In this document: piece by piece, positions 4,503 to 38,960 of the stretch | How the letters are laid out: each line of letters begins with the position of its first letter | Numbering within the stretch: position 1 is the stretch's first letter | Assembly (NCBI RefSeq): GCF_006874625.1 | Contig: NZ_CP030034.1 | Coordinates: forward strand, 2,914,001-2,978,000 | DNA length: 64,000 bases | Origin: Bdellovibrio sp. NC01 | Lineage (GTDB): Bacteria; Bdellovibrionota; Bdellovibrionia; Bdellovibrionales; Bdellovibrionaceae | Direction of reading: 5' to 3' | The notes under the pieces: model-generated | The model's input: the letters and a program-made list of their open reading frames with translations, nothing else | What the model was told of the DNA's origin: nothing | Databases searched by the model: none | Program-made: the position numbers and the translations under genes

Positions 4503-4657
4503 ACAAGTCATCCTAACAAAAGCGGTGTTGAAAAACCTTTTGTGTTTTTATCGGCCAAATCACATCACCACAGTCCACATCAGAATTGTAACTCCCCAAC
4601 TGAAAATCGTTGAATTAAACTTTTGAATACCTGTGTATTCCATGATTAGGAGTTCAT

Positions 4658-5606: not shown

Positions 5607-7238
<1,632 letters not shown>

Positions 7239-20449: not shown

Positions 20450-20791
20450 ATGAAACTAACACTTGTATCCGTTCTTGCATCGTTGGCTATTTCTTCTTTC
20501 GCACAAGCTGCCACTTTGAACTGTCACATCGACATCAATAACGATCCATTGTTGCAAACTCAAGTTGAGTCTAAGACAAAACAAAAAGTTAAAATCGGCG
20601 ATGTTGATACCGTGACTGCTTATATCACTGAAAAAGTTGACGGGATTTATACGCTTGAGGCCTTTATCGCCAATGCAGAAATGCGCGTCTATAGCGAAGG
20701 CATGTTGAAATCTAGCAATGACCGTCTTTCAACAAGCGTTTGGAGTCGCGATATCCTTCTAGACATTGAATGCTCTTTAGCTAATCACTAA
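20450..20791 (+). CDS. Small periplasmic protein
   Basis: 113 residues with a clear signal peptide (MKLTLVSVLASLAISSFAQA) and a small beta-rich mature domain bearing two cysteines (LNCHID and IECSL) that could pair. The start has AAGGAG 8 bases upstream. The last 11 bases overlap the end of the convergent GH3 gene. Function unknown. Confidence 0.8.
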   Translation: MKLTLVSVLASLAISSFAQAATLNCHIDINNDPLLQTQVESKTKQKVKIGDVDTVTAYITEKVDGIYTLEAFIANAEMRVYSEGMLKSSNDRLSTSVWSRDILLDIECSLANH

Positions 20792-22289
20792 GAGCATCTA
20801 TCGAGAACAACACTTCAATCTTGTTCTGACCAGCAAGACGACTTGAACCAAATTGCTTTAAGAAATTAAAGATGTCTTGGACCTCAACCGCTTTTGCTGG
20901 CTGCAACTGCCCTAGCTGTCTTGCGACCTGATAGTGATGCACCTTCAGCAAGGACTTTTCAATGTCGACGTTTGCGACATTCTGCCCAAACAAAATATAT
21001 TGCGGCTTTGGCAAACGCACACCCACTAAAGAAACCGCCTGCCATTCAGGGTGATTTGCAAAAAGATCCTGCACCCAAGCCGCATCCATTTTTTCACCGA
21101 CAAGATCGACACTGCGTAAACGCGAAACAAATTCGAAGCATGGCACGGACTGCAGGAACCCCGTAACACGCAAGCGGTCTTGCAGTGGATAGCGCAGAAG
21201 TCCTGACGAAGTCCACAGAATCGGCTGATACTCTTCACCCTTTTGCAATTGCCACGCAGGCACTATGTTACCTGTCGCTAAATTCCTAAATTCAAAAAAG
21301 TGCGAATGAAACGCCAGGCATTTTTGCTTTTGATAAGGAATCGTGACGACACCTTCAGTTGCCCACAACCCCTTGCCTTGGAAATTTACATTTGGAAAAC
21401 GCGACTTCAATTTATCAGCCCATAAAGCGCTTGAAGAAGAATCCCAAGAACTTAATAACTGAAGCTTAGGCCACAACTTTACAAAGAATTCAGAATCGTC
21501 TGGATTTAGATCTGTAACATCACGAACAGGTGCTTTACCCAAATGAGCTGCAAGCTCGGTGGAAAATTTATTCCATTCCCCGTTATGTAGAGCCGAACAA
21601 ATCTCTGACCAATTGTTTTGGATATCTTCACTGACCTTCAACCAAAAAGTCGGACTCCACACCGAAACGAGTGATAAATCTTTCTGTGCCGCCAGATACA
21701 ACAATGTCGCCCACCACGCAGCCTCAGAGCTTTGCAGGGTCGCGATTTCAGAGGGCACGGCCATCAACTGATTTAAAATCCAGCGCTGATACGCAGGAAA
21801 CAGATCTGCATCATTGGAGTTAGTTAAACCGCGCAGCTCCTGGGGAAGCCATGACAGCGACCAGTAATGGGTCCCCGACTTAATCGCTGGAATTCGTTTA
21901 TACAGATCACCCAACCAGACTTGCGCCGCTTGATTGATTTCGTTCAAAAACACACGTGTGTAGGGAATCCACTTCCGTTGGTCTGTCGAGCCACTCGTCG
22001 GCTCGTAACGTACCACTTCAGAAGAAATAATATTTTCTCCGTTGGCTCTTTGACGCTCTATTAAAGCTGCGTAGTCTTGATAGGACTTTACGGAAACGGA
22101 CTTGCTCAATTCTTCATAACTCAATGAAGCACTTAAATGCTTCCACTCGGTGGTGTTCTGAAGACTTGTTATAATATCTGCAAGCTTTTTTCTTTGAATA
22201 GCTTCCAACGAACCTAATGAACGACGAAAGGTCTTTTCACTGCGAGCATAATAAACTTGTAGAAGCTCGTGGCACAGACGGCGAATCAT
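20781..22289 (-). CDS. GH3 family acyl-acid amido synthetase
   Basis: 502 residues of the GH3 adenylate-forming family: a central YEPTSGSTDQRKWIPYT phosphate-binding motif, followed by helical and ATP-site segments (WATEGVVTIPY) and a small C-terminal domain. Known GH3 enzymes activate a carboxylic acid with ATP and join it to an amino acid or other amine. It is the last gene of an overlapping operon (its ATG overlaps the TGA of the acyltransferase), so it probably forms an amide in the pathway of this cluster. The substrate is unknown. Confidence 0.85.
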   Translation of the reverse strand: MIRRLCHELLQVYYARSEKTFRRSLGSLEAIQRKKLADIITSLQNTTEWKHLSASLSYEELSKSVSVKSYQDYAALIERQRANGENIISSEVVRYEPTSGSTDQRKWIPYTRVFLNEINQAAQVWLGDLYKRIPAIKSGTHYWSLSWLPQELRGLTNSNDADLFPAYQRWILNQLMAVPSEIATLQSSEAAWWATLLYLAAQKDLSLVSVWSPTFWLKVSEDIQNNWSEICSALHNGEWNKFSTELAAHLGKAPVRDVTDLNPDDSEFFVKLWPKLQLLSSWDSSSSALWADKLKSRFPNVNFQGKGLWATEGVVTIPYQKQKCLAFHSHFFEFRNLATGNIVPAWQLQKGEEYQPILWTSSGLLRYPLQDRLRVTGFLQSVPCFEFVSRLRSVDLVGEKMDAAWVQDLFANHPEWQAVSLVGVRLPKPQYILFGQNVANVDIEKSLLKVHHYQVARQLGQLQPAKAVEVQDIFNFLKQFGSSRLAGQNKIEVLFSIDALSD

Positions 22290-23407
22290 ACAAGCCCCAT
22301 CTCAAAAGAAACGGAAGAACCATCGGAAACACGTTTTTTATCGGTAGACACCGCAAATAATAACACCGGAACGCGCTGTTCAACCCAGCCTTTAATTTTG
22401 TTTTGCAATCCCCATTCGTCAGAAAAAGAAATCATGTGCGCTGCTTTTTCAGACTTAAAAGTATATTCAGCGAAAGCTTTCACCGCTTCCGACGCATCGA
22501 CAGATTCATGAATATTCAAATGGGTTAGATAGATAGTTTCTAAATTATCGCCGACACCTGGCATATTAAGGCCGCAGAAACGTAAAGTCTTAAATAAGGC
22601 CCGCAAGACCACAGGGGCCTTCACCACAGTCATGCGTTTCGCAAAACCAGGGCTCCACGGCAACGTACAGGCCACAATTTGTCCTGCTTGATTTTTAATA
22701 AGTAAAAACTTTTCAAGCGCAAAGCCCTGCCACGCGGAACTGCGATAGTTCCAACAATCATCAGCGCTGTCATCAAAGATCGCACCAAAAAGTTTGCGCG
22801 TCTCGTTCATCTGTAAAAACTTTTTTAGAACTGGAAGATCTTCTGGTTGCGCCGCCACAGCGGCTAATTTCGATGAACGATACCACGGCAAGCGTCCATA
22901 GACATTCACCATGTCGACTTCTTTCAAGAACTCATAATAAAAGCCAAAGTCTTTTTTACTAGAAGTCAGACTGCGGAGCGCTTCGATGTTTTTCTTTAAA
23001 ATCGCCGTCAAAAAATACTGAGGTCGATCAAAACTTTCATCGGCTTTAATTAAATTCAAAATTTCCGCATACGCCTTACGCCAAAGTTTAGCCGCCGCTC
23101 GAGTGCCATCCGTGCGAAAATCCCCAATGTAAGCACATGAAGCCTTTTGCCCATGAACCCATTTTTGTTGCACCGACATCGAAAAGAAACCGCTAACACG
23201 TTCCTTTTGCCAACCCATGACTGTCATATATTTGGCAGCTTGGCATTCTAACAGACGAGGAAATGACGGACTGCGATCGTAAAGAAGTTCGATACCACTT
23301 AAACGCATCGGTGCCGCATTCATAAAATCCAAAACTTTCTGATTATCACGAGCATAATCAAAAAGAATAAGATCTTTATTTTCAGCGAAGTAGGATTTTA
23401 AATCCAA
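22286..23407 (-). CDS. Acyl-CoA N-acyltransferase-like protein
   Basis: 373 residues. Segments such as SGFFSMSVQQKWVHGQKASCAYIGDFRTD and AAKLWRKAYAEIL recall GNAT-fold proteins (central strand pair, then a helix after R/D-x-x-x-x-G). A second GNAT-like half may follow (LLIKNQAGQIVACTLPWSPG). It probably starts at TTG 23407, overlapping the Rieske gene end by 10 bases after GAGAGAGAG. Its position between the oxygenase and GH3 suggests acyl or aminoacyl transfer. The family call is tentative. Confidence 0.6.
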   Translation of the reverse strand: MDLKSYFAENKDLILFDYARDNQKVLDFMNAAPMRLSGIELLYDRSPSFPRLLECQAAKYMTVMGWQKERVSGFFSMSVQQKWVHGQKASCAYIGDFRTDGTRAAAKLWRKAYAEILNLIKADESFDRPQYFLTAILKKNIEALRSLTSSKKDFGFYYEFLKEVDMVNVYGRLPWYRSSKLAAVAAQPEDLPVLKKFLQMNETRKLFGAIFDDSADDCWNYRSSAWQGFALEKFLLIKNQAGQIVACTLPWSPGFAKRMTVVKAPVVLRALFKTLRFCGLNMPGVGDNLETIYLTHLNIHESVDASEAVKAFAEYTFKSEKAAHMISFSDEWGLQNKIKGWVEQRVPVLLFAVSTDKKRVSDGSSVSFEMGLV

Positions 23408-24462
23408 AACTCTCTCTCTCGATTGAAATTGATTTCATGGGCGTCGTGGCGGTTCGTGATGCCTTTCACGCGCATGCGATCGATCGCTACGTGCAATTCA
23501 TCGGCTTGAGTGGACTTGAAATCCCCTTCACCAAACTGCACGAAGTTGTCGCCTTGATTTTTCATAATTTCGACGTCTTGTTGAATCACTTTACGAGTAT
23601 AGAACTGCATAAATGGCTTAAACACGCGACTGAGCAGTCCGACATCGTAAGCAATCCACGTATATACGCGAGATTTATAACGCGAAATCGGTGAACATTG
23701 ACTATTGATGATAAAAAACTTTTTCCCGAATTTATAATCGACCCGAGTCAAATTTGGAAAGATGAACTCATCCATATGAATCATCGGCTCGTTACCGGGA
23801 TTTAAAACCTTACTGGTAAAACCAATAGTGTCTTGCGTTTGGTTATAGGTAACTTTAACACGCGCATTGCCAACGGCAATGTCGACCGGAACTTTTAAAA
23901 GCGAACGATTTCTAAACCATTTGGAATGCACAAACACGGTATGTGGCACATCCATGAAGTTCTGAACCAAATGAGTGACCTCATTATCAAAATCCGTGAT
24001 CATGAAGTAAGACACGACAGCTTTATTGCCGTACTCAGGAAAACGCCAGCTTGGACCTGCTGTTGCAAGCTTTGCATCGCCCGGCCAAATCCACACGCAT
24101 CCATCTTGCACAACCACTGGTGTCTTATGCGTGCACCAGTTGCGTTTCTTGACGGCATCTTGCGCTTCCACAGACGGACCATCAGAAGGCACGTCAATAA
24201 GCTGACCATCTGAATTAAACTTCCAACCATGATAAGGACAACGAACGGCGCCGTTTTCGACGGTACCCAACGAGAGCTGAGCACCGCGATGAATACACTT
24301 ATCAAGCAATGCTGTCACTTCGCCCTTTTCATTTCTAAAAAGAACGTAAGGAGTGTCATACAAATAACGTTTGATCGGTTTACCCGCGGGAACTTCCGAC
24401 TCTAAGGCAAGAATGTACCAGTGATTTACTAAATCACCGTCTTGTTCGCGCAGGCTGTGCAT
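23398..24462 (-). CDS. Rieske-type non-haem iron oxygenase, alpha subunit-like
   Basis: 354 residues. The Rieske cluster ligands are CIHRGAQLS and CPYHGWKF (C-x-H then C-x2-H). The C-terminal catalytic domain has the mononuclear-iron segment QNFMDVPHTVFVH, with the downstream acidic ligand in the usual place. The preferred ATG (24462) sits in a TAATG overlap with the upstream gene; an ATG 12 bases earlier is also possible. Such enzymes hydroxylate or desaturate using electrons from a reductase, and no reductase or ferredoxin gene is adjacent. The RnfD-like fusion just upstream is a candidate membrane partner (inference). Confidence 0.9.
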   Translation of the reverse strand: MHSLREQDGDLVNHWYILALESEVPAGKPIKRYLYDTPYVLFRNEKGEVTALLDKCIHRGAQLSLGTVENGAVRCPYHGWKFNSDGQLIDVPSDGPSVEAQDAVKKRNWCTHKTPVVVQDGCVWIWPGDAKLATAGPSWRFPEYGNKAVVSYFMITDFDNEVTHLVQNFMDVPHTVFVHSKWFRNRSLLKVPVDIAVGNARVKVTYNQTQDTIGFTSKVLNPGNEPMIHMDEFIFPNLTRVDYKFGKKFFIINSQCSPISRYKSRVYTWIAYDVGLLSRVFKPFMQFYTRKVIQQDVEIMKNQGDNFVQFGEGDFKSTQADELHVAIDRMRVKGITNRHDAHEINFNREREFWI

Positions 24463-27257
24463 TATTTTTTCCATGTTAACTTCGTGTACTCATTTACTTT
24501 CAAGTCTTCGAAAACTTCCTCGTGCATAAGGCACCAATTAATTTTCGCTGAAACTTTCTTCACACCATGGCCCAAACCAAAGTGCACACGCTTATCACTT
24601 TGTGCAGAAAAGCCACTCACCGCTTGCGTCTCTTGGAATAGAGTGAATTTTTCGCCATTTTCTTTTTCAACGAAAAGTTCAACTCGTGTTCCTAAGGCCT
24701 CTGCATTACATTGCGGGTTTGCACTCGACAAATCTAAACCGATCCATGCATTCGCATCGGCTGCTGTGCCTTTGTAAACGTTTTTATACAATGTCGGTTC
24801 GCCGAACTGGTGTGTGAAGATAACATCCATACGACCCGTATTTTCAAAATCGGCAGCAGCAACACCACGCGAATTCGTCAACTCTGTGACACCCACAGCA
24901 GACGCCACGTCAACGAATTGTGGTTTTTGTGATGGACCACGATTTAGGTAAATACGATTTTGCTCGTTTCCATAAATGCAATAACCACGAAGATCACCCC
25001 ATTTATTTGCATAACGATGGATTGCTGGTGGCGAGCGAGCCACTTTTTCATTCACATACCAATAATCAGGACACGATTCGAATTTTCTATCGATTTTATC
25101 ATCGACCATCCCATTTGCTTGGCCAAGATCCACCCAACCGTCATTATCGAAGTCAGCGGCGACACCACCCCAACCGAAGCGGTCTTCATTCAACGCGCCC
25201 TTCGCTGTCGCCATCTCTGTCACTTCAGGATAGAATGCGCTTTGTCCTTTAGAGAACATCCACAACAAACTGCCCTCTGCCTGGAAAGCATGGTGCACGT
25301 TTGAAACGTAGACTCCCAACCAACCTGTGCGATCGAAATCCCCGACAGAGACATTCATACCTTTGTAAGTATCCTTACCAATCGAGCCAAAGATATCGCC
25401 TTTGATATTTTCAAAGTATTTACCTTCGTGATTGTAGTACAAATCATCAGGGCCAAAATCGTTGGCAATATAAATATCTGGCCAACCATCTTTATTGAAA
25501 TCCGCAATACCGACAGCCAACGACCAACGCGTTTCCGGCAAGCCCCACTTATCTGAATCTTGCAAAGCGAACTTATGATCAGGCGTTTGCAACAACAGCA
25601 AGTTCTTGCCGCCATTGTTCGACATGTGCCAGCTATCATGCATGAAATTAAACGGACGTTGATCCCCTTCGTATTCAGCCTGTGGCAAATGGAAAAGATT
25701 CAACTGATGTGGAGTTTGATAGTCCGGAAGATTTTCAGGCCACACATTCAAAATTAAAATATCAAGCAAACCATCTTTGTTAAAATCAGCAAAGGTCGCT
25801 GCCAAAGAGTTTGTATAAAGCTTATCAAGACCCACTTCTTTAGAAACATCGACAAACGAAAGCTTGCCCGTTTCTTGCAACATATTTTTAAGCAAGATCG
25901 GATGACCAAAACCAACCGTCAAAAGTAAGTCTTGATCGCCATCATTGTCATAATCTGCAAAGATCGCGTTGCTGATAACGCCGTTCACTTTAGGATCCGC
26001 GATGAAACTATCAAGCATTGGCAAGGGAATACGCTCAAATTTAAAGTCACCCACATTGCGATACAAAGCCGCGCGCTCTGATTTTTCTTTGACCATGTTC
26101 GTTAAGAAAATATCCTGACGACCATCATTGTCGACATCAGCAACGGCAACAGCATCACCAACGCTAAGAATCCACTTGGCCACGTGTTGGATGCGTGGAT
26201 CAAGATCCTCATACAGGCCACCGTACTTTTCTGCGTTCAGACCTGAATGTTTCGATTCGACCTTTTCCAGGTGCCAGTTTAGGTTTTCAATGGACAAGTT
26301 CGGGTGAATGAACTGCGCGTAAACGAAACTGCCTGAAAAGAATATCGCTCCCAAAACAAGCGGACGCTTGAAATAACCGCTTTCAATGAAGTTGACTTTA
26401 AAATAGTTCCCGAAGCCCATCGCACGCGCCGCACGGAAATGATTTAGGCCGAAACGGAACGAACCAACAATCAATGCTGAATAGAAAAACGTGTAATAGC
26501 TTTGACGTAAGTGCAGCGCCAAATCAATCGTCGCAAGCCAGAAGCCAACCCAAATTTGTGTCTTACGATCCTTCGGTGTCGTTGCCGGATCTGTGATCAT
26601 GAAGAACGTAAAGATCAAAAACGAAGGTGACGACAACGTCCCTAAGAACAAAGTTTCAAATGGTAAATGGTGGCGCATGATGAACGCACGCAATGCCGTT
26701 TGAATCGTGAAAAAGAATAAGAACGAAATCACCAACCACTGTCTATTCACTTTAGGGATAACGAACATTAAGCCTAACATCAAAACGAAGATCGACATCG
26801 CGCCAATACCGTTCCATTGATAGGCCGGTGCCGCCGTAATCAAATCATGAGAAAACAACAACGACATGCTGACACCCACCATTGCAGGATTCAGCGCATG
26901 CTTACCTTTAAAGGTAATCAAATACTTAAAACCAATCGCAAAGAAGACCGGCACAAACAGCAAAAACAAATCGTGACTATAGTTCAACAGAAACGACAAA
27001 GAAAAACTTGTGATCAAAGCGCTGAGTGGGAACATCCACTCCCCTTTGAAAATTCTTGTCAGAACCATTTCCAAAACTACGCAAGACACTGTTGTCGTGA
27101 TGGCTTGAAGTGGCGAGCGATTAAAGCCCAGAACTGTCAAACCTAGTAACAAATAAATAAACAAGATGACGGCCACAGGAATACGTGGGTCCAATTTTTC
27201 AAAGCGAACTTTAAGATCCTGAAAAGCAATGCCAATAGGCTGTAAGATTTGTTCCAT
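24462..27257 (-). CDS. RnfD-like membrane domain fused to FG-GAP repeats and an UnbV/ASPIC domain
   Basis: 931 residues. Residues about 1-320 carry roughly ten hydrophobic segments of the NqrB/RnfD family, including the FFMITDPATTPKDRK loop typical of that family. Residues about 365-830 are exported beta-propeller repeats with at least six D-x-D/N-x-D/x-G calcium loops (DVDNDGRQD, DYDNDGDQD, DFNKDGLLD, DFNKDGWPD, DFDNDGWVD). The end (GTRVELFVEKENGEKF...FGLGHG) is an UnbV/ASPIC domain, as in CRTAC1-type proteins. RnfD and NqrB carry flavin and move electrons or ions; whether this copy keeps flavin cannot be told. It is the first gene of the operon with the Rieske oxygenase, acyltransferase and GH3 genes. 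Confidence 0.88.
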   Translation of the reverse strand: MEQILQPIGIAFQDLKVRFEKLDPRIPVAVILFIYLLLGLTVLGFNRSPLQAITTTVSCVVLEMVLTRIFKGEWMFPLSALITSFSLSFLLNYSHDLFLLFVPVFFAIGFKYLITFKGKHALNPAMVGVSMSLLFSHDLITAAPAYQWNGIGAMSIFVLMLGLMFVIPKVNRQWLVISFLFFFTIQTALRAFIMRHHLPFETLFLGTLSSPSFLIFTFFMITDPATTPKDRKTQIWVGFWLATIDLALHLRQSYYTFFYSALIVGSFRFGLNHFRAARAMGFGNYFKVNFIESGYFKRPLVLGAIFFSGSFVYAQFIHPNLSIENLNWHLEKVESKHSGLNAEKYGGLYEDLDPRIQHVAKWILSVGDAVAVADVDNDGRQDIFLTNMVKEKSERAALYRNVGDFKFERIPLPMLDSFIADPKVNGVISNAIFADYDNDGDQDLLLTVGFGHPILLKNMLQETGKLSFVDVSKEVGLDKLYTNSLAATFADFNKDGLLDILILNVWPENLPDYQTPHQLNLFHLPQAEYEGDQRPFNFMHDSWHMSNNGGKNLLLLQTPDHKFALQDSDKWGLPETRWSLAVGIADFNKDGWPDIYIANDFGPDDLYYNHEGKYFENIKGDIFGSIGKDTYKGMNVSVGDFDRTGWLGVYVSNVHHAFQAEGSLLWMFSKGQSAFYPEVTEMATAKGALNEDRFGWGGVAADFDNDGWVDLGQANGMVDDKIDRKFESCPDYWYVNEKVARSPPAIHRYANKWGDLRGYCIYGNEQNRIYLNRGPSQKPQFVDVASAVGVTELTNSRGVAAADFENTGRMDVIFTHQFGEPTLYKNVYKGTAADANAWIGLDLSSANPQCNAEALGTRVELFVEKENGEKFTLFQETQAVSGFSAQSDKRVHFGLGHGVKKVSAKINWCLMHEEVFEDLKVNEYTKLTWKK

Positions 27258-27363
27258 ACTCTACTTAATTCAAGAACGGGCACTAATGTCATCATGAATC
27301 CGAGACTACAAGGCGCGTAATTTTAATATTTGCCAGAGAGGATTTTCCCTCTTATTTTAGGCT

Positions 27364-28212
27364 ATGCTTCGCTTCCGGGAAGACCTTCGCAGCTTAACTT
27401 TTATGGCCATCAGTACCGCTTTATTGTACGAAGGCCTTGTGACACCAGTTGGTTGGTGGAGTTTGGCGTTGATCCCGGCATCGTGCCTCTTTTTTTACAT
27501 CTGCTTCACCATCAATCACAACCAATTGCATTTGGGGATGTTTCGCGCGACACCGCTGAATATCGCGGCAAATATTCTGCTATCCCTGTGCACCGGAGTC
27601 CCCGTCACGATGATTTACTTGCCGCACGTGCAAAATCATCATCCCAACCCCTGCAACGGCAAAGACTGGGCAGGAGCACATTTGGTGGATGGTCACCAAG
27701 GACTTTGGCGCGCCTTGATTTACATCGCAAAAGCACAAATCGCCCCGATGAAAATGCGTCCACGCTCACTTTTTGCGGGTTTAAATACTTATCGTAAATC
27801 ATCACTATGCCTTGAAGCCCTCGCACTGGGCATCTACATCGCCTATGCGCTTTACGCGCATCCTGTTTCGTTTTTACTGCACAATTTACTGCCGTGGTTT
27901 TTAAGTATGAATGCATTGATTCTAATGAACTTCGCTTTGCATGACGGTTGTGATTACGATTCAAAGCTGGATCACTCTCTGACTTTCACGACAAAAATTG
28001 GTAATTATTTTTTACTGAACAACGGCTATCATCTTGCGCATCACGAACAGCCAAAGATGCACTGGTCAAAGCTTCCGCACTATCACAACGAAACGGTGAA
28101 GCCGAGGGCCCGCACCGAGTTTGAAAAAGTATCGATCCTTAAACACTTACGACTTATGTACTTTTTTATTCCAAAGGTAGCGAAGAACGAAGTAGTCGCC
28201 AAAAAGACTTAG
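27364..28212 (+). CDS. Membrane fatty-acid desaturase / hydroxylase family
   Basis: 282 residues with three histidine boxes: HNQLH in the first membrane pair, HVQNHH, and HLAHHE near the C terminus. That is the diiron pattern of integral membrane desaturases, hydroxylases and ketolases. It is shorter than typical acyl-lipid desaturases. It is the only plus-strand gene of the 20.8-35.9 kb cluster and overlaps the convergent exporter gene by 66 bases. The start ATG is unusually close to the likely promoter and has a weak ribosome site. Confidence 0.88.
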   Translation: MLRFREDLRSLTFMAISTALLYEGLVTPVGWWSLALIPASCLFFYICFTINHNQLHLGMFRATPLNIAANILLSLCTGVPVTMIYLPHVQNHHPNPCNGKDWAGAHLVDGHQGLWRALIYIAKAQIAPMKMRPRSLFAGLNTYRKSSLCLEALALGIYIAYALYAHPVSFLLHNLLPWFLSMNALILMNFALHDGCDYDSKLDHSLTFTTKIGNYFLLNNGYHLAHHEQPKMHWSKLPHYHNETVKPRARTEFEKVSILKHLRLMYFFIPKVAKNEVVAKKT

Positions 28213-30339
28213 TAAAAATCCAAGACAGAATAAAATGCCCAGTGTCCGAGGTGGCGCAAACGGTGACGCCAAGAACACCAAACACGCTGTCGACATCATG
28301 ACACTGGTGACAATCGCGCCGGGAAATCTTGCATCCATGCCTTCATCAAAGCGCATGGTATCTTTCGCAAACATAAATTCAATAATGTTATCGCCTGTCA
28401 GCCCCAAGACCACGGAGGCTGTTAATGACGTCATCATATTAATCGGAATTCTAAATACCATGATCAAAATCAACAAAACGGCAGGTCCCCATAAGGCACT
28501 GTAGACGACCATCAACGGTCGAGGGAAATCCAATACCATCGCCAAGAATAACAAAATGATAATCACCAACACGAAACTGACGAACAGACTTTCAAACAGC
28601 GTTTCCGCAAGATGACGAACAAATTCGGCATAGGTGATGATGGCGCCACTGGCATAGCAGCTATCACCACAAAGCGTGTGAACTTCATCACGCAATTTTA
28701 AGACGTCTGAAATTTCCGAGGTCTTTAAAAATAAATGATAACGTTCCAAATCTTTCTTGCCAAAGTAACGATCTGGACGCCACATCTTAAAGAACTCACG
28801 TTCAGCCAATGAACGAGTTAAACCCGTCAAATGCCCCGCGGAAGACTCGAACGCTGCTTGCGCGGTATCAATCTTTTGCACAAATGGATTTTTCTGCATC
28901 GCCAGAACGATCTTATCTTTTGCGAAATCGGGATCTTTGAAAACAACACTGACTGAGTACTCCCAACCCATTTGCTTTATAAATCCATCCGTATCCTGAC
29001 GGAAGATGTGCGAGCCTGGGAACATCAATTTTGGTTCATCATAAAAGTGCAATCCCCACGGCAACAACACGACAAAGAAAGCAATCCAATGAAAGCGTAA
29101 AAACTTAAAGCGCGATAACACTTTGATTTTTTCAACGAAGTGAAAGCCCACGGCCTTTTCATATGAAACCCAGTGTTCAAAAATACTTCCCGGTTTTGTT
29201 AACAGAGGCAAAAAGAAGAACGTCAAAACCCACTCAAAAAAAGCGCCCGAAGCGGCAAAAATTCCGAAATCGCGAATCATGGGCAAAGATGAAATCGCGA
29301 GAGAACCAAAACCCACCATCGTCGTAAACGACGTGAAAAATCCTGCAAGTTGCAAGCGACGATAGGATTTTCTAGCGACTCCCGTCGATTTCATGTAATC
29401 CATCGCCACAAATGCCAAATCTTGCAACGTGGACACGGCAATCATCACCATCAAGGCATTCGTCAGAATATCGAAGCTACCACCGACTGCTCCCATTAAA
29501 CCTATGACCCAAATCAATGCGATCACCAGACTTAACAGATAAAGCAATCCCGCTTTCCATGTCCCCATAAAGAGTCGGAAGAAAATCAATAGCACAAATA
29601 GCAATAGCAAATGCACACGCGAGAATTCACGATTGCCTTTACCGAGATAACTTTCATAAGCAGCACTACCAAGGAATTCCGTTTGCAATTGCAACGGTTT
29701 CCCGACTTGCGCTTCCCACCTCTCCATGAAGTCCTTCAAGATGGGATATGAAAATGCACGAATCTTAGGATCAACAACCGATTCAGCAAAATCAAATTGC
29801 ACCAGGAACGATTCCTTCGTCGCATCGACGAGAACCCCTTGCCACGGAGATTTTACAAACTGATTCAGGGAAATAGTTTTATCCGTGGGCTGTTCACAAT
29901 TCAGCTCAAGACTGCGCGGATAGAAGATCTTCGAATCGATCTCTTTAATTCCACGCATGTCAAAGATACTGAACGCTTTAATGACGTGCTGATTGTTCAG
30001 TGCTTCGTGACTAATCCACGCACGCACTTTACAGAACTCATTTTCAGTCAGTGATTTTTGCGGAAGGATATTCAGGATGAGATAACGATTGTCATTGAAC
30101 TTTTCATCGGTGTTCTTAAGTTCAGCCAAAGAAGGAAAAGCCGAAGGCAGCAATTCATAAATTGAAAGGACCCCACGGACTTTCGTTGCTTGGCTCAAGG
30201 CAAGAACAGTAACCAGAGCAATAAATGTAAACACCCAACGCGGTTTTTGATGAACCCGTCTTTCCAAAAAAAGAAAGCTTCGGTTTAACAACCGAAGCCC
30301 CTTTTTTCCATGTGCTTTTACATTAGCGAACAACTGCAC
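28147..30339 (-). CDS. RND/MMPL family exporter
   Basis: 730 residues with two repeats of one membrane helix, a large periplasmic loop and five to six helices, the HAE3/MMPL plan. Repeat one has the loop FLVQFDFAESVVDP and helices from VHLLLLFVLLIFFRLF; repeat two has helices from VSFVLVIIILLFLAMVLDF. The GTG start overlaps the previous gene by 17 bases, suggesting translational coupling. MMPL proteins commonly move lipids or lipid conjugates across the inner membrane, so this is the probable exporter of the cluster product. Confidence 0.88.
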   Translation of the reverse strand: MQLFANVKAHGKKGLRLLNRSFLFLERRVHQKPRWVFTFIALVTVLALSQATKVRGVLSIYELLPSAFPSLAELKNTDEKFNDNRYLILNILPQKSLTENEFCKVRAWISHEALNNQHVIKAFSIFDMRGIKEIDSKIFYPRSLELNCEQPTDKTISLNQFVKSPWQGVLVDATKESFLVQFDFAESVVDPKIRAFSYPILKDFMERWEAQVGKPLQLQTEFLGSAAYESYLGKGNREFSRVHLLLLFVLLIFFRLFMGTWKAGLLYLLSLVIALIWVIGLMGAVGGSFDILTNALMVMIAVSTLQDLAFVAMDYMKSTGVARKSYRRLQLAGFFTSFTTMVGFGSLAISSLPMIRDFGIFAASGAFFEWVLTFFFLPLLTKPGSIFEHWVSYEKAVGFHFVEKIKVLSRFKFLRFHWIAFFVVLLPWGLHFYDEPKLMFPGSHIFRQDTDGFIKQMGWEYSVSVVFKDPDFAKDKIVLAMQKNPFVQKIDTAQAAFESSAGHLTGLTRSLAEREFFKMWRPDRYFGKKDLERYHLFLKTSEISDVLKLRDEVHTLCGDSCYASGAIITYAEFVRHLAETLFESLFVSFVLVIIILLFLAMVLDFPRPLMVVYSALWGPAVLLILIMVFRIPINMMTSLTASVVLGLTGDNIIEFMFAKDTMRFDEGMDARFPGAIVTSVMMSTACLVFLASPFAPPRTLGILFCLGFLLSLFGDYFVLRYLWNKKVHKS

Positions 30340-31834
30340 GCAATGGACCTGCTAACACAACACCGCCCCAAGACTGCGCAAGAACGCGAGCTGCTGTGCT
30401 GACATCCGAACCTTTTTTGATCTCTGGGAAGATCGTTTTATAAGCATTTACATTCCAATCAGTTGGACGACCGTGGAAGTAGTTATAGTAAGAAACGTCT
30501 TCAGCTTTTGCGCTCTTACCAACTTTGATCTGAGTTTTGCTGAATTTTTGAGTCATATCGAAAGACGTTGGCAACAATGACTTCACGTCGTTCGGAGGAT
30601 TCATATAGAAACCTTTAAGATCGACAACCATCGTTTCGCCCGTCAAACGGCTTCTGATTTTTGTTGGACCTTGAACCATCTCTTCAAGAACTGACAGGTG
30701 GTTGTTGATTTGACGATCAAAACCCACGAAGAACGCTGGATTCAACAAGAAGTTTTCAGCAGCCGGTTTGTCTTTCACTTCTTCCCATGCAATACGCAAG
30801 TAAGACACAGCTTCCTTCATGTGATTGAACGAACGCTCCATCCACAAACGACCATCACGATACAAAATGAACGTGCCCGCATACTTAGGTTTTTTGAAAA
30901 CCGCTGTACGCTCAAGGCTGTTCACACCGTCAACAGAACCATTTGGCAACAATGACGTTGTAAAACCATCAACGCCGTACAACGAACCCATCTCTTTAGA
31001 CATCGCCATCACGTTTTTTACAGAATAAGAACGGAACGCCGTCAAATAGTGCAAGCCCATTTGTTTCGCCGCCAACAAAGCCCATTTTTCTGCAGAACCG
31101 ATCAATGTGTAGCGATCTTGTGTATCGATATTCGCGTCAACGATACCTGCGTAAAGGATTTTATTATCCCACACAAGTGGAGTTGAAACTGGAATGCCTT
31201 TGATTGTTTCAGCAGACTTCAAAGCTGCTGGGTAAACAACGTCACCAAGGAAAGCCTGGAACTCTTCACCTTCTTTGAACTGCACGACGCCGTCATAAGG
31301 CTGAGTCAAATAAGCGAACAAGGCATTTGCTTGTTCCGTTGGGAAGTACACTTTCATTTGTGCCGCTTGTCTCATAACGAAAGACAACATCACACTGTGA
31401 GTTACGTTAGTCTTCGCAGCCAGCGGAGCAATTCTGTAAACGATACCTTTAAATGGTTGCAACAACACTAATTGTGCCATCAACATTTTTGCATCTGGAG
31501 CCAAAGTATCAAACTTCGCTTGGTATTCATTAATCAAAGAATCGATTTGCGCAGGGCTTTTAACAGCAAGAATTTTTGCGCGAATCTCTTTCAAGTTATC
31601 AGACATTTGTGATTCATAGTCGATACCGCTGGAAGCCACTTTGCGATTCCCACGGTCATGAGCGGTTTTTACGGCTTCTTTGAATTCTGTAGAGCTCATC
31701 CAAGGATAGCTTGTTGTTGAAATATCCAACGAACTTTCACGCAATACCGGTGCTGCATTTTGCGGAGCACGATTTGCAGCCATGGCTGATGTTGCCATCA
31801 CAGTCGCTGCACAGACTACTAGTACTGATTTCAC
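30323..31834 (-). CDS. Large secreted protein of unknown function
   Basis: 503 residues from a GTG at 31834 preceded by GAGGGGG; the signal peptide is VKSVLVVCAATVMATSAMA. The mature protein is mixed alpha/beta with no motif I recognise, no cysteine-rich region and no membrane helix. A helical early part (IRAKILAVKSPAQIDSLINEYQ) is followed by a long compact domain. It overlaps the RND exporter gene, so it may be a periplasmic partner of export or an acceptor of the product. Confidence 0.8.
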   Translation of the reverse strand: MKSVLVVCAATVMATSAMAANRAPQNAAPVLRESSLDISTTSYPWMSSTEFKEAVKTAHDRGNRKVASSGIDYESQMSDNLKEIRAKILAVKSPAQIDSLINEYQAKFDTLAPDAKMLMAQLVLLQPFKGIVYRIAPLAAKTNVTHSVMLSFVMRQAAQMKVYFPTEQANALFAYLTQPYDGVVQFKEGEEFQAFLGDVVYPAALKSAETIKGIPVSTPLVWDNKILYAGIVDANIDTQDRYTLIGSAEKWALLAAKQMGLHYLTAFRSYSVKNVMAMSKEMGSLYGVDGFTTSLLPNGSVDGVNSLERTAVFKKPKYAGTFILYRDGRLWMERSFNHMKEAVSYLRIAWEEVKDKPAAENFLLNPAFFVGFDRQINNHLSVLEEMVQGPTKIRSRLTGETMVVDLKGFYMNPPNDVKSLLPTSFDMTQKFSKTQIKVGKSAKAEDVSYYNYFHGRPTDWNVNAYKTIFPEIKKGSDVSTAARVLAQSWGGVVLAGPLRAVVR

Positions 31835-31854
31835 GAAATCCCCCTCATAATTTT

Positions 31855-32403
31855 TTAAACTTTTTCCCAATGCTTAAATTCTTTAAACTCTTCAAAATAA
31901 TCTTCAATAGCATGCACGGCTTCAGGCGTTCGATAATGCTTTTGATAAAAAGCCCACATCGCGCGACCTGCGATCCGACCTGACTTCGTTCCCACTGGAA
32001 ACTTTCTGTCGGCATCCAACTCTGCAAGGACACTTGTGCAATTACGACAGTTTTTTGCGGTCCAATCAAGCACCTTATACTGATATCGATTTACATCGAG
32101 TTCGTTTTTTAAAACCCATGCTCTGTCAAAAAACCTTTGTGAGACCTCAACCGGTCCCCACACTGTCACCGGTAATGCGTCCTTGGGTGTAGCCAATAAT
32201 GTCTCTCTTAGTCCCCAGTTACGACCTTTCACGGGCCCACCAAACAATGTGTAATCGCCGACATCGGGAAGCCACGAAATACAGAACTTGCGCTCAACGG
32301 TATGAGTCTGGTCCACAGAGTAAAAAACGGCAAAAAGATGCGGCTTGCGACCGATCAACAATTTTCCGTTATCTGAAGAGATGAGTGACCAAAAATAGCG
32401 CAT
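31855..32403 (-). CDS. Hypothetical cytoplasmic protein of the cluster
   Basis: 182 residues, no signal peptide or membrane segment. There is a C-x2-C pair in AKNCRNCTSV and aromatic-rich strands (FCISWLPDVGDYTLFGGPVKG). The ATG overlaps the previous stop as TAATG, so it is translated with the AhpD-like gene. I do not recognise it; it could bind a metal or nucleotide. Confidence 0.75.
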   Translation of the reverse strand: MRYFWSLISSDNGKLLIGRKPHLFAVFYSVDQTHTVERKFCISWLPDVGDYTLFGGPVKGRNWGLRETLLATPKDALPVTVWGPVEVSQRFFDRAWVLKNELDVNRYQYKVLDWTAKNCRNCTSVLAELDADRKFPVGTKSGRIAGRAMWAFYQKHYRTPEAVHAIEDYFEEFKEFKHWEKV

Positions 32404-32939
32404 TAAACCTTCAAGTAGCCTTCATTTTTAAGACGAACCGCCATCATGTCATAGGCATGTTCTTCTGCGGGAGCAAAAGTCGCTAGACCATCCACATAAC
32501 GATTGAACATACAAAAGGCTGATGCCACCAAAACCGCATCATGAATGCAGGCGTCTGAAGCACCCGCCGCGCGAGCTTTCGCCATCATTTCTGGTGAAAC
32601 ACCTAAAGCTTTCTTCTGAACTTGTCCTGCGATTTCTAAAAGTGCTTTCATTTTATCAGAGATATCAGCTGTTTTATAATCACGCTTTACTTGTTCCACG
32701 ATAGACTTATCGCCATCCAACAAAGCTGATGCAACTGCAGAATGGGAACGACAGCAGAACTGACATTCATTCAACCATGATACGTAACTTGCGATCAATT
32801 CGCGCTCTGCACGCGACAGTGAAGAATCTTCCACCAACAATGCATGTGCAAGTCCACGCAAGGCTCTTCCTGTTTCTGGGCGATACTCCATCAAGCCCAC
32901 GATGCCAGGAAATTGGTTATCAAGTTTAATATGTGGCAT
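32403..32939 (-). CDS. AhpD-like / carboxymuconolactone-decarboxylase family protein
   Basis: 178 residues. The motif CQFCCRSHSAVA (C-x2-C-x3-H, preceded by an acidic residue) is the AhpD-type redox site of peroxidase-related enzymes in the CMD superfamily. The start at 32939 has GGGGG upstream and overlaps the end of the membrane gene. In this operon it may handle peroxide or thiol steps linked to the oxygenases, though a purely catalytic CMD role is possible. Confidence 0.82.
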   Translation of the reverse strand: MPHIKLDNQFPGIVGLMEYRPETGRALRGLAHALLVEDSSLSRAERELIASYVSWLNECQFCCRSHSAVASALLDGDKSIVEQVKRDYKTADISDKMKALLEIAGQVQKKALGVSPEMMAKARAAGASDACIHDAVLVASAFCMFNRYVDGLATFAPAEEHAYDMMAVRLKNEGYLKV

Positions 32940-33357
32940 ATGCAAGCCCCCCCATGATGAAAGCAAGAGTCAGATTAAAAATAACATTCATACGACTGCG
33001 CGACCACGTGATCGCAAAAGCTTTTTCCACCAAATCACGATAGAAAAAACGTCCCAACGCACGGAACACTAATAATGCCGATAATATCGCCATAAATGCG
33101 GCACGATGAACGGGATCTTTTTGAAAAAGTTCAAGAGTGCACATCAAAGCAATTGAAATCGCGTAAAAGCCTAAAGGTTTCAGATTGTACTCGTAGCGAG
33201 GGTCCAACTCCTGCGGCAATTCCAAAGCATAAAGTTTCAAAGCAATCTTACGAATCACTGATGTCGACAAGACCGAAGGAATACCTACTGCAAAGTGATA
33301 AAGTGCGAATAAAAATAAAATCGCTTGAGTCAGCGCATGTATGCTTAAATATTCCAT
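32926..33357 (-). CDS. Small membrane protein of the cluster
   Basis: 143 residues with about four hydrophobic segments (AILFLFALYHFAVGIP, FYAISIALMCTLELF, AAFMAILSALLVFRALG, IFNLTLAFIMGGLAY). There are no catalytic motifs. The start overlaps the end of the desaturase gene by 13 bases. It may be a scaffold or small transporter subunit; function unknown. Confidence 0.78.
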   Translation of the reverse strand: MEYLSIHALTQAILFLFALYHFAVGIPSVLSTSVIRKIALKLYALELPQELDPRYEYNLKPLGFYAISIALMCTLELFQKDPVHRAAFMAILSALLVFRALGRFFYRDLVEKAFAITWSRSRMNVIFNLTLAFIMGGLAYATY

Positions 33358-34301
33358 CCAGTTTCCTCGCGATTAGAAAATAAAATTTGATCTGCTGGCA
33401 GCGCTTTTGCCTCTTTCAACCATGAATACCAATCGGCATCATTGGCAGAGCGCACTTTCACCATCGGTAGGAAATAACACGGAATTTTTGGCCAAATATG
33501 GTGCGGACCATGGGCATCGAAGCTTAATAGAATATACTTCGATACAAACGGTGGGAAAAACAATGTGCGCGTGAACTGATCTTGCTCATACACCGGCACG
33601 GGACGCACTTCTTCACTGCCCGCGATCTTTTGGGGAACGTGGCTGTGCTGACTGATCAACAATGGATCCGCGATAACTAAGAACAATAAATATCCTACAG
33701 TCCAAATCTTCCAGATATGTGGCGTGTGCGGAAAGATCACCCAGAAGGTCAGCTGCATAACCAAAAAACTAAATACGAACTGCCAGCGTTCTTTTGTGCG
33801 AGGAAATAATCGAAACAGTCGCGGCATATTCCAAAAGTTCTTAACTGAAAAAGAAATCGCTAAAACTGGAATCCACCAACGCCAAGCAAAGCGCGCAACT
33901 TTACGACGTGAATTATTCCCATTCTGTGGAAGAGTTGATTCCATTGTTGGATCTTTATCTTGCCACCCCGTCCAGGTGTGATGTTGCGCATGAATGAATT
34001 TCCACGGAGTAAACGGCACCAAACAGAAAATGGAAGCCACATGCCCCCAAATCCAGTTTGCAGTTCCCGACTTGAAAAACACATTGTGCCCAAAATCGTG
34101 AAGTAACACGAACCACTGCAACACGGCGATCGCAAACAAACACTGCCCCACTAGCCATACCAGCGTCATTGAAGAAAGTGACAACACCACAGACATAGCA
34201 GTCAAAGCAATCACACGCGAAAGCGTCCAAATAGCTAACGTCGTATTGCTTTTATAAGCATGATACTTCACCACTGTGGCTTTGAAATCTTCCTTCAACA
34301 T
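33345..34301 (-). CDS. Membrane fatty-acid desaturase
   Basis: 318 residues with three histidine boxes: HDFGHN, HAQHHTW and a C-terminal HGPHHIWP. These are the eight-histidine diiron site of integral acyl-lipid desaturases. Four membrane helices are visible between them. It acts on acyl chains in the inner membrane with electrons from a donor not encoded beside it. It is preceded by 9 bases after the AurF-like gene. Confidence 0.9.
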   Translation of the reverse strand: MLKEDFKATVVKYHAYKSNTTLAIWTLSRVIALTAMSVVLSLSSMTLVWLVGQCLFAIAVLQWFVLLHDFGHNVFFKSGTANWIWGHVASIFCLVPFTPWKFIHAQHHTWTGWQDKDPTMESTLPQNGNNSRRKVARFAWRWWIPVLAISFSVKNFWNMPRLFRLFPRTKERWQFVFSFLVMQLTFWVIFPHTPHIWKIWTVGYLLFLVIADPLLISQHSHVPQKIAGSEEVRPVPVYEQDQFTRTLFFPPFVSKYILLSFDAHGPHHIWPKIPCYFLPMVKVRSANDADWYSWLKEAKALPADQILFSNREETGWNI

Positions 34302-34310
34302 CGTCGCTGC

Positions 34311-35204
34311 CTATTTATACATGAAACCAAAAAGATTCCCGAAGGACGGCTTCCTGGATTGAAATTGATTTTTAATAAAGCTTCTGGTTTGACGATACGG
34401 CGCAAATTCACGCAATATCCAACCACCTAAACGCAAAGTCCATCTTGTCGTTTCCATGAAAGACGTTGTATGCAAGACGGCCTTCACCATGCGCGAACAA
34501 CCGATCAAGAAACAAATCTGCAAATAGAAAATACAAGCCAGTGTTGAAGCCAATGCCAAAACTTTCTTAAGTCCTTTAAGTTGACTGAGTTCTAACTCGT
34601 ACATATCGAATTCATAACCGATATGCAGGCTTTCATCCATCAAGTGCAGAACGTTAAGCTGACTCCAAGAATTCACATTATCACTGAAAGCATTCTGCAA
34701 AGCCTTGCCATAAAAAACGGTATAAGCCTCTACCTTCGCGGCAGGTAAAGCCAACGCGACAGGGTAAGTGCGCGCTAGCCACAAAAAACTATTTTTAAAT
34801 TTCTTATTGTGACGAAGCAGATAACTTGTTGATGCAAAGCCTGGACAATCGTTTTGTAAAAAACGAATGAAGGCTTTGGAGTGATCTTTTTCTTCTTGCA
34901 TCAGTTTGCGCGAAGCCTCGATCAACGTAGCGTCTTGTCTTTGTGTGATCAAGGAACGAACACCTTCGTACAAAACAAGCTCTAACAAAATCAAAGCTTC
35001 GGCATTAAATTGGATGAAGGCTTTATAGAAGGCATTTTTTTGTTCTTCGCTAAGTGCAGAATAAAAAGGGGTGTTAGAAAAAGGCGTAAGGCTATCGACT
35101 CTTGCCGATGCAAAAACAGACGGAAGACTTTGATTTTTAAATTGACGCCATCGATAAGCAGAATCGTTATTGCTTATGATAAACTGTCTCAAGCCCTTTT
35201 CCAT
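34311..35204 (-). CDS. AurF-like non-haem diiron oxygenase
   Basis: 297 residues, helical. The diiron ligand pattern of AurF-type N-oxygenases is visible: an early Glu (69 or 75), E105-x2-H108 in QEEKDHSKAF, E159 in AKVEAYT, and H187-x3-E191-x2-H194 in HLMDESLHIG. Spacings closely parallel those of AurF (PF11583). AurF converts an aryl amine to a nitro group; relatives do other oxidations, so N-oxidation is an inference here. The gene overlaps the upstream gene by 38 bases; a later start is possible. A hydrophobic stretch (VLALASTLACIFYLQICFLI) near residue 220 is unusual and suggests membrane association. Confidence 0.75.
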   Translation of the reverse strand: MEKGLRQFIISNNDSAYRWRQFKNQSLPSVFASARVDSLTPFSNTPFYSALSEEQKNAFYKAFIQFNAEALILLELVLYEGVRSLITQRQDATLIEASRKLMQEEKDHSKAFIRFLQNDCPGFASTSYLLRHNKKFKNSFLWLARTYPVALALPAAKVEAYTVFYGKALQNAFSDNVNSWSQLNVLHLMDESLHIGYEFDMYELELSQLKGLKKVLALASTLACIFYLQICFLIGCSRMVKAVLHTTSFMETTRWTLRLGGWILREFAPYRQTRSFIKNQFQSRKPSFGNLFGFMYK

Positions 35205-35919
35205 CCTTGATAAAAGCCTTTCTAATTCTTTTTAAAACATAGCGTAGTGGCACCCATAAAGAGACCTTGGCCACACAGGCAAGCTCCACGCCTTCTTTCC
35301 AATCAGGATTTCTTTTTTCAAAAAAAGCGATACGTGGATTTTGGCGGCACTCTTCCGTGATTTCTGCGACGAAATCTTTTAAGTGCGCGCTGGTATTATT
35401 TTCGAAACGAATCAAACCTTCCGCCGCAGAATATTTTTTACCGAAACGCTCTTCGTAAAAAGCATTCATGATATTTAAATGCGACACCGGAGTCGCTACT
35501 TCATAGCGCGGGAAATGTTCAGGAAAGTTGTTGGTCATCAACAGATAGGTCTTATAACCCTTAGAAATCAAAAACCAGTAAACTGAAGTAAAAGGATTGC
35601 GAAGTTTTACGTTCGTCAAATAACGACCAAACGCCATTGCTAAAGCCCCGTTACCCCAATGTTCGCGACTTAATACGGTGTCACCGCTGTATAAAGCGAC
35701 AACTTTTTTACCGTCGATGTTCATCGCACGCTCAAGGATCGTAGAGAATCCTTTGATCTGCGCATCTGTACCGAAAAGCAAAATCACTTTTTGCTTTTCC
35801 ATCAAATCGGCGACGAAACTTTCGTGCGTCACTTTATCGTAATACTGCTGCATGATTTCGTACATCACCGCAATATCCGTTTTTGATAAATGTTTTACAG
35901 ATTTGATCTTAGTCTTCAT
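35167..35919 (-). CDS. GNAT-fold acyltransferase-like protein, first gene of the cluster
   Basis: 250 residues. The segment GDTVLSREHWGNGALAMAF resembles the GNAT acyl-CoA loop, followed by a helix and the strand SKGYKTYLLMTNN. It lacks a clear partner family, so the call is structural. The ATG at 35919 is used; a preceding TTG is less likely, and the ribosome site is weak. A possible promoter is TTGATT-N18-GATAGT just upstream. It leads the eight-gene operon running to 28147. Confidence 0.65.
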   Translation of the reverse strand: MKTKIKSVKHLSKTDIAVMYEIMQQYYDKVTHESFVADLMEKQKVILLFGTDAQIKGFSTILERAMNIDGKKVVALYSGDTVLSREHWGNGALAMAFGRYLTNVKLRNPFTSVYWFLISKGYKTYLLMTNNFPEHFPRYEVATPVSHLNIMNAFYEERFGKKYSAAEGLIRFENNTSAHLKDFVAEITEECRQNPRIAFFEKRNPDWKEGVELACVAKVSLWVPLRYVLKRIRKAFIKDGKGLETVYHKQ

Positions 35920-36013
35920 CAAGACATAAGACTATCGGCAGTTGCATTCCGGTCAATCAAGATCTTGTTCATTCACAGATTATTGGCACCCAGAGCCAAA
36001 AATACTGTCCCGA

Positions 36014-37964: not shown

Positions 37965-38960
37965 ATGTCTCAGAGTTTTGAAAAACTACTCACAGCTGAC
38001 CAAAAAGAAGTTGTGCGCAAAAACTTGCGTGAACTGTCGGTCTTAGATCAGCGTAAAAGTGTCGGCGCCTTCGCACTTGATTGGATTCTGATCTTAGCAA
38101 CGATCGTAATTTCGGAAAAATTCTTTAGCCCAGCACTTTATCTTTTAGCCGTGTTATTCATCGGGACTCGCCAACATGCGATCGCGATCCTTTCCCACGA
38201 TGCGGCCCACTATCGCATTCTGACAAATCGTAAAGCCAATGTGTGGATGACAAACCTTCTGGCGTCATGGCCACTGTTCGTGCAACTGGAGTTATATCGT
38301 TTAAGTCATCTGCAACATCACCAATATACAAATGCGCCCCAAGATCCAGATGTGATCTATCAAAAAGATTTGTGGGATTATCAATTCCCAATGTCTGCTA
38401 AAAAACTTCTTAAAATTTTCGCGATGGATTTCTTGGGCTTCGGCATGATCGCGAATCTAAAACGCGCTGCCCGCTATACGATGGATGCAGAAATTAAACA
38501 GGCGGTAAAAAAAGATACGGACCAAACCAAGCATGGACGTTTGGCATTTTATATTCTGCTTGCCGTTGCTCTGACAGTCTTTGGCGGATGGAAACTGTAC
38601 TTGATGTACTGGATGCTTCCGTTGTTCTGGGTATTGCCGGCATTGCTGCGTTTGAGAAATATCAGCGAACATTATGGTCTTTCGCGCGTGAATGAATTGA
38701 AAGGCTCGCGTGATGTTTTGTGCGGACCGATTGAAGCGTGGATTTTTGCACCTCACAACGTGAATCTGCATTTGGTGCATCACCTTTATCCATCAGTGCC
38801 GTTTTATAACTTAAGAAAATTCCACGAAGTGTTAATGACAATTCCAGCATATCGTGATGGATGCCACAGCAATAATAGCTATTTCTTGCCACACAAAGAT
38901 TCTGTATGGAAGGATTTGACGGCGACGACTGAAGAGGACAAAGTTGAAGTTATCGCATGA
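37965..38960 (+). CDS. Membrane fatty-acid desaturase
   Basis: 331 residues with the three histidine boxes HDAAH, HLQHHQYTN and HLVHHLYPS, as in acyl-lipid delta desaturases and related ketolases/hydroxylases. Hydrophobic pairs surround the first and second boxes. The next gene, encoding a binding protein, overlaps its stop by ATGA, so both are translated together. It is the third desaturase in the window; it is not part of the minus-strand cluster but lies 2 kb away. Confidence 0.9.
   Translation: MSQSFEKLLTADQKEVVRKNLRELSVLDQRKSVGAFALDWILILATIVISEKFFSPALYLLAVLFIGTRQHAIAILSHDAAHYRILTNRKANVWMTNLLASWPLFVQLELYRLSHLQHHQYTNAPQDPDVIYQKDLWDYQFPMSAKKLLKIFAMDFLGFGMIANLKRAARYTMDAEIKQAVKKDTDQTKHGRLAFYILLAVALTVFGGWKLYLMYWMLPLFWVLPALLRLRNISEHYGLSRVNELKGSRDVLCGPIEAWIFAPHNVNLHLVHHLYPSVPFYNLRKFHEVLMTIPAYRDGCHSNNSYFLPHKDSVWKDLTATTEEDKVEVIA

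Follow-up and report, generated by a model that had tools for sequence, protein, structure and literature searches.

A predicted acyl-amide biosynthesis-and-export cluster without a polyketide synthase in Bdellovibrio sp. NC01

Introduction

A 64,000-nt stretch of the Bdellovibrio sp. NC01 genome (positions 2,914,001-2,978,000 of NZ_CP030034.1, the single 3.98-Mb contig; hereafter the window) carries a cluster of about 13 genes in which a GH3-family protein stands together with acyltransferase-like proteins, oxygenases, desaturases, an exporter and an apparent fusion of two proteins known from enediyne clusters, UnbU and UnbV. Parts of this cluster recall described systems. GH3 enzymes form amides from acids and amines in an ATP-dependent reaction, and bacterial polyyne clusters consist of an acyl-AMP ligase, an acyl carrier protein and a thioesterase together with desaturases. 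For UnbU and UnbV we know of no established function in enediyne biosynthesis. The steps from the product of the enediyne polyketide synthase (PKSE) to the enediyne core were called mostly unknown in 2022 (PMC8725005). In the ornithine-lipid pathway of Singulisphaera, OlsH, a bacterial GH3 enzyme, uses ATP to join a fatty acid to ornithine, giving N-acyl-ornithine, and its authors stated that homologues may produce other N-acyl amino acids (PMC12493201).

The locus in the window shares with the OlsH/OlsI pathway a bacterial GH3-family enzyme, but it has no OlsI hydrolase, and its GH3 is accompanied by two GNAT-like proteins, Rieske and diiron oxygenases, desaturases, the UnbU-UnbV fusion and exporters. 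Similarly, it shares with the enediyne warhead cassette homologues of UnbU and UnbV (here fused), but PKSE, UnbL and the thioesterase are missing and desaturases and GH3/GNAT chemistry are present instead. Judged by its gene content, the cluster is thus neither an enediyne cluster (no PKSE or UnbL) nor an OlsH/OlsI pathway (no OlsI), nor, because acyl-AMP ligase, carrier protein and thioesterase domains are absent, a bacterial polyyne cluster. We propose that it is a biosynthesis-and-export cluster free of polyketide synthases (PKS) for a predicted acyl-amide metabolite, a reading to which we assign a probability of about 0.6. The recurrence of its core genes, the adjacency of GNAT1 and GH3, the pumps beside them, the OlsH precedent for GH3 and the fold of GNAT2 all count for an acyl-amide pathway, as does a second class of clusters, in which several Rieske proteins accompany GNAT1 and GH3, joined in locus L151 by a fatty-acid hydroxylase and by AurF-like and ferritin-like proteins.

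Results

The open reading frame list resolves the cluster into two minus-strand runs and one plus-strand desaturase gene, Des2. Run A (35922 to 28147) encodes, in this order, GNAT1, an AurF-like protein, Des1, TM143, an AhpD-like protein, p182, Sec515 and an RND protein; run B (27257 to 20781) encodes the fusion, which had been read as RnfD/FG-GAP, a Rieske protein, GNAT2 and GH3. Within each run adjacent genes share 1-41 bp, with a single 9-bp gap as the sole exception. Des2 (27364..28212, plus strand) and the RND gene overlap tail to tail by 66 bp; on its other side, 106 bp separate Des2 from the divergent fusion gene. A sequence-only reading of this DNA had named most of these genes, all of which were recovered where it had placed them, and had described two overlapping operons. 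The two tight runs were found as described, but the runs themselves do not overlap, as Des2 lies between them, and run A holds two further genes with no named function (31855-32403 and 32926-33357). The G+C content of the cluster (0.42-0.45) is similar to that of the remaining window, and nothing in the composition therefore points to recent transfer. In an empty-site comparison, the flanks (18.8-20.8 kb and 36-37.6 kb) were not adjacent in any other genome of the genus. A promoter scan of the cluster returned a count equal to that in shuffled sequences, and we therefore claim no promoter.

Five of the families, GNAT1 (35167..35922, minus strand), the UnbU-UnbV fusion (24462..27257, minus), the Rieske protein (23398..24474, minus), GNAT2 (22286..23407, minus) and GH3 (20781..22289, minus), form a core, and the 18 loci in which it is complete represent six phyla. 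When the fusion protein was used to scan named bacterial genomes, full-length homologues with 42-73% identity appeared in the Bdellovibrionaceae, in Massilia and further Burkholderiales, in Gammaproteobacteria (among them Pleionea), in Verrucomicrobiales, Leptospirales and Saprospiraceae, and in a Gemmatimonadetes bin. When relatives of the window genes were sought near 21 of these fusion genes, GH3, the Rieske protein and GNAT2 were each found in 17 loci and GNAT1 in 15; some of the 21 loci without the full core end at contig edges, and the count of 18 complete loci includes further Bdellovibrionota loci beyond the 21. The pairwise protein distances of the five core families correlated in all ten family pairs (r 0.61-0.82), and none of 2000 permutations reached any of the ten observed values. 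A complete core in 18 loci, together with a correlation of distances beyond all permutations, indicates that the co-location is more than chance. This bears on the view that unrelated operons merely adjoin here and that the fusion serves respiration or sensing. The convergent gene between the two runs and the accessory genes that differ between lineages would fit such a chance neighbourhood, but for the core it is contradicted by the recurrent co-location of five families with correlated divergence, and the fusion lacks the flavin motif of RnfD (see below); we regard it as extremely improbable. If limited to TM143, p182 and the AhpD-like protein, a chance neighbourhood is possible.

GNAT1 is a rare gene: it was present in 80 of 369 genomes of the phylum and in 7 of 398 Pseudomonadota genomes; within the genus, the window genome and one congener were the only carriers among about two dozen. 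In six of the seven carriers among the Pseudomonadota, GH3 is the immediate neighbour of GNAT1 (the seventh is a weak GNAT1 match), and the two genes also adjoin on a Citrobacter plasmid and in Acinetobacter. Among 40 GNAT1 neighbourhoods in Bdellovibrionota we found GH3 in 32, a Rieske protein in 26, RND in 17, Sec515 in 15 and the fusion in 11, which means that the fusion is characteristic of only part of them. Presence of the AurF-like, AhpD-like, desaturase and RND/Sec515 genes differs between lineages, and homologues of the AurF-like protein, including one weak broken match, were limited to 7 of the 192 genomes compared from the phylum. As these accessory genes vary while the five-gene core recurs, the 15-kb block consists of a conserved core (GNAT1-GH3-GNAT2-Rieske-UnbUV) and lineage-specific tailoring and export. 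Conservation as a block in relatives had been named beforehand as a test of the proposal: the core is conserved in this way, and the AurF-like, AhpD-like, Des1 and RND/Sec515 genes vary.

Bdellovibrionota also contain a second class of clusters (L131, L151, L125, L127, L132 and L140), which carry GNAT1, GH3, a hexapeptide transferase and several (3-4) Rieske proteins, with no UnbUV fusion. One of them, L151, also encodes a fatty-acid hydroxylase and two proteins that are AurF-like and ferritin-like, respectively.

Other arrangements of these families were seen as well. On an IncF-type plasmid of Citrobacter portucalensis (L185, 10046-18704), GNAT1, GH3, four radical SAM genes and GNAT2 form a single run. 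A replicon of Burkholderia arboris (L186, 10.5-19.4 kb) has GNAT1, GNAT2, GH3 and a Rieske protein clustered with no UnbUV fusion, and several desaturase-family matches and a PF10118-like protein in the same region. A membrane protein of ~200 aa with no Pfam match (family c5) was found in 13 of the 21 core loci (L025, L022, L028 and others) and is absent from the window.

Neither GNAT1 nor GNAT2 matched Pfam, and a profile search of the Protein Data Bank (PDB) with GNAT1 gave nothing usable. The AlphaFold2 model of GNAT1 (251 aa, a single domain; predicted local distance difference test (pLDDT) 88) matched GNAT proteins in structure (Z 12.5), and 26 columns were invariant across 12 homologues; the gene lies beside GH3 in other phyla too. 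The model of GNAT2 (373 aa, pLDDT 89) matched human N-myristoyltransferase (NMT) 2 over 307 of its 373 residues (Z 21.6, root-mean-square deviation 4.3), which makes GNAT2 NMT-like in fold, a tandem GNAT along the whole chain and the fold of an acyl-CoA:amine transferase. It resembles the eukaryotic enzyme in this tandem fold but has only ~10% identity to it. The models thus show that the two proteins had rightly been called GNAT-like despite the missing Pfam matches. From likeness of fold alone, GNAT1 and GNAT2 may transfer acyl groups to amines.

The third protein, GH3, matched Pfam GH3 (1e-30) and GH3_M (4e-15), and in a PDB profile search the plant enzymes GH3.12, GH3.15 and JAR1 (1e-33 to 4e-28). 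Its motifs TSGS..K.IP, ATEG and RY...D are invariant or near-invariant in homologues. These matches place it in the GH3 acyl-acid amido synthetase family; it has the three nucleotide-binding motifs of the plant members but is shorter (~500 aa versus ~580-610 aa). With OlsH as a bacterial precedent, an amide-forming step by GH3 in the cluster is plausible.

The 931-aa fusion protein contains, in one open reading frame, matches to Pfam NQR2_RnfD_RnfE (7e-13), FG-GAP and UnbV_ASPIC. Its N-terminal domain is distantly similar to RnfD, and the flavin loop fails to align with solved RnfD. A motif of the [ST]xAT type is the flavinylation signature of RnfD/NqrB, and this covalent flavin mononucleotide motif was found in the membrane domain of none of 20 homologues. 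A tblastn search of annotated plasmids showed that the fusion aligns in a single stretch with a pair of neighbouring Streptomyces genes, UnbU ('enediyne biosynthesis protein') and UnbV (VCBS/CRTAC1), with 24% and 30% identity, respectively, and with common motifs in both halves. In S. clavuligerus (NZ_CP065235.1) the gene order is DUF1702, VCBS, UnbU, type I PKS and thioesterase, which we take to be the enediyne cassette (UnbL-UnbV-UnbU-PKSE-thioesterase). The sequence-only reading had suggested the fusion as a possible electron source. We rejected this role as probably wrong because the flavin motif is absent and UnbU/UnbV are the better match.

A protein search for UnbL (DUF1702) was positive in both control records and found none in 18 cluster-bearing genomes. 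No PKSE was found in the cluster, and in the window genome there were only short partial matches, all close to 1.97 Mb and roughly a megabase from the cluster. As UnbL is absent and the PKSE matches are distant and partial, the fusion is UnbU and UnbV joined in one chain in a PKS-free setting. A Serratia proteamaculans plasmid (NZ_MT039191.1; L189, 8302-12945) likewise encodes homologues of UnbV and UnbU away from a typical enediyne PKS: its DUF1702, VCBS and RnfD-like genes neighbour separate genes for ketosynthases and one for an acyl carrier protein. It differs from the cluster in having UnbL, ketosynthases and the carrier protein, and neither GH3 nor GNAT1 was found there.

These relatives raise the question of whether the product might be a polyyne- or enediyne-like molecule built without PKS by serial desaturase/acetylenase steps, with the fusion stabilizing or converting the unsaturated core. 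The plasmid matches of the UnbU domain are almost all from Streptomyces (46 of 50; the Serratia plasmid is one exception, and two more, from Metabacillus and Mesorhizobium, lie among unrelated genes), many of them are annotated as enediyne proteins, the C-1027 producer included, and the clusters carry several desaturase-family genes each. Against this idea, UnbL and the enediyne PKS are absent, the cluster lacks an acyl-AMP ligase, an acyl carrier protein and a thioesterase, desaturase number and type vary and alkyne formation is only putative; we consider such a molecule very unlikely. A class of PKS-free clusters in which desaturases build a polyyne- or enediyne-like acyl chain, UnbU-UnbV handles it and the GH3/NMT-like pair caps it as an amide seems to us quite unlikely. 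If it exists, it would tie UnbU/UnbV to chemistry independent of the enediyne PKS and offer a simpler system in which to find their role.

Among the tailoring enzymes, the core Rieske protein (Pfam 3e-24) has invariant residues C60, H62, C79, H82, N172, D175, H178, H183 and D300 (cluster ligands CxH..CxxH and iron site NxxDxxHxxxxH) and is a member of the Rieske non-heme iron oxygenase family. Its nearest profile matches were DdmC (3e-39) and SxtT (6e-37), whose substrates are small molecules. The AurF/CmlI-like protein (34311..35204, minus), an accessory, matched Pfam AurF at 4e-4 (20.1 bits), below the curated cutoff of 29.6. We compared it with the seven-residue diiron ligand pattern of AurF: E75, E105xxH108, E159 and H187xxxE191xxH194 are invariant in 6 homologues with AurF-like spacing. 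A weak profile match (0.0015) was to 5hyg, presumably CmlI, listed in the PDB table as uncharacterised.

Both Des1 (33345..34301, minus; Pfam FA_desaturase 9e-22), with the boxes HDFGH, HAQHH and HGPHH, and Des2 (FA_desaturase 3e-19) carry histidine boxes, and relatives of Des2 adjoin the fusion gene in four other loci (L013, L018, L023 and L027). A third gene of this family (37965-38960, plus; Pfam 7e-39), with different histidine boxes, lies 2 kb past the cluster, where its neighbours code for a periplasmic-binding-like protein and a LysR regulator; it probably serves ordinary lipid desaturation and is possibly related to the cluster. The small accessory proteins are the AhpD/CMD-like protein (32403..32966, minus; CxxC and His; Pfam CMD 1e-10, NCBIfam peroxid_rel 3e-25), a 67% identical copy of which directly precedes the fusion gene in locus L028; the hydrophobic TM143 (32926..33357, minus), with no Pfam match and with homologues that adjoin the AurF-like gene in L003 and L005; and the 182-aa p182 (31855..32403, minus), which has no Pfam match and overlaps genes on both sides.

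The putative RND/MMPL-type exporter (28147..30339, minus) matched NCBIfam HAE3 at 7e-11, below the curated cutoff, and relatives match MMPL (L025, Pfam 1e-9). Residues D307 and D650, candidates for the paired intramembrane acidic residues of such exporters, are invariant in six sequences. In many Bdellovibrionota loci the exporter is found with the family of Sec515 (30323..31870, minus), a predicted secreted protein with a signal-peptide-like N-terminus, no Pfam match and nothing usable in a PDB profile search. Where the trio GNAT1-GH3-GNAT2 occurs without the remaining core, pumps follow or flank it. Next to the trio lie a membrane-fusion protein with an MFS (EmrAB-type) pump in locus L178 and a membrane-fusion protein with an RND pump in L182; in L187 (4249-14859) of Acinetobacter baumannii, a chromosome-sized record labelled as a plasmid, an upstream LuxR-type regulator, an amidase, EmrA-like, EmrB-like, GNAT1, GH3, TolC-like and GNAT2 genes follow in a row (the pump names in L182 and L187 come from reading the sequences, not from a family search). 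That pumps of different types accompany one trio speaks for a product that is moved out of the cell, and this comparative evidence supports export.

Export to the medium competes with an amino-lipid pathway in which GH3 would make an N-acyl amino acid, acyltransferases would add a second chain, oxygenases and desaturases would tailor it, and the RND protein would deliver it to the outer membrane, so that the product stays in the envelope. OlsH and its authors' remark on other N-acyl amino acids speak for such a pathway, and so does the exporter, whose closest solved structures in a profile search were Dispatched, MmpL4/5 and HpnN, several of them lipid-handling. On the other side, no OlsI-type alpha/beta-hydrolase is found among the cluster proteins. 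As the distribution is patchy even within the genus and the exporters in other lineages are of drug-pump type, a secreted specialised metabolite suits better, and we consider the amino-lipid pathway unlikely.

Discussion

For the acyl-amide metabolite that we propose, the following sequence of steps can be envisaged. Des1 and Des2 would add unsaturation or hydroxyls to an acyl chain, after which GH3 would activate a carboxylic acid with ATP and couple it to an amine that is probably an amino acid, as family chemistry and OlsH suggest. The NMT-like GNAT2 and GNAT1 would, if their folds are a guide, move acyl groups onto amines, and the Rieske and AurF-like oxygenases, whose metal ligands are conserved, may tailor the product in a late oxidation. 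The fusion, from its homology to UnbU and UnbV, may act at the membrane on an intermediate that is reactive and highly unsaturated, handling it there or carrying it across, and the RND protein with Sec515 would export the product.

Several observations weigh against this proposal. Three of the 40 Bdellovibrionota GNAT1 neighbourhoods have neither GH3, GNAT2, Rieske nor fusion genes, and in the window itself the GNAT1-GH3-GNAT2 trio is divided between both runs. The cluster contains neither an acyl carrier protein nor an acyl-CoA ligase, and it has no Rieske reductase. Des1 also matches, weakly (1e-4), the model of the guanitoxin arginine hydroxylase. Enzymes of the fatty-acid desaturase family can hydroxylate amino acids; because of this, and because the Rieske protein is nearest to DdmC and SxtT, the 'lipid-derived' origin of the product is the least secure part of the reading and may be wrong. 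The acyl-chain substrates, like the N-oxidation suggested earlier, are accordingly best regarded as putative.

The earlier idea of a coherent biosynthesis-and-export cluster nevertheless holds, given the conserved core block, the OlsH precedent and the different pumps by the trio. Its statement that no cluster of the same composition has been described agrees with our literature search, which covered few subscription journals and no bioRxiv and within that coverage returned no paper joining GH3, Rieske, desaturase and FG-GAP, none on UnbU/UnbV and none joining AurF with Bdellovibrio. If the proposal is correct, a cluster type with no signature of PKS or nonribosomal peptide synthetases (NRPS) spans at least six phyla, predatory bacteria included, and such clusters may escape rules built on PKS/NRPS signatures. 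It would also open bacterial GH3/NMT-like amide chemistry to testing and give UnbU/UnbV a PKS-independent context.

Other features of the window

Outside the cluster, the window contains a gene for a GroEL-like chaperonin (5607-7238, minus), perhaps a second copy, between universal-stress-like genes (3657-4511, minus, and 7475-8368, plus). Near its other end (61434-63887, minus) a chemoreceptor-like protein is encoded that has four consecutive, very similar PAS repeats.

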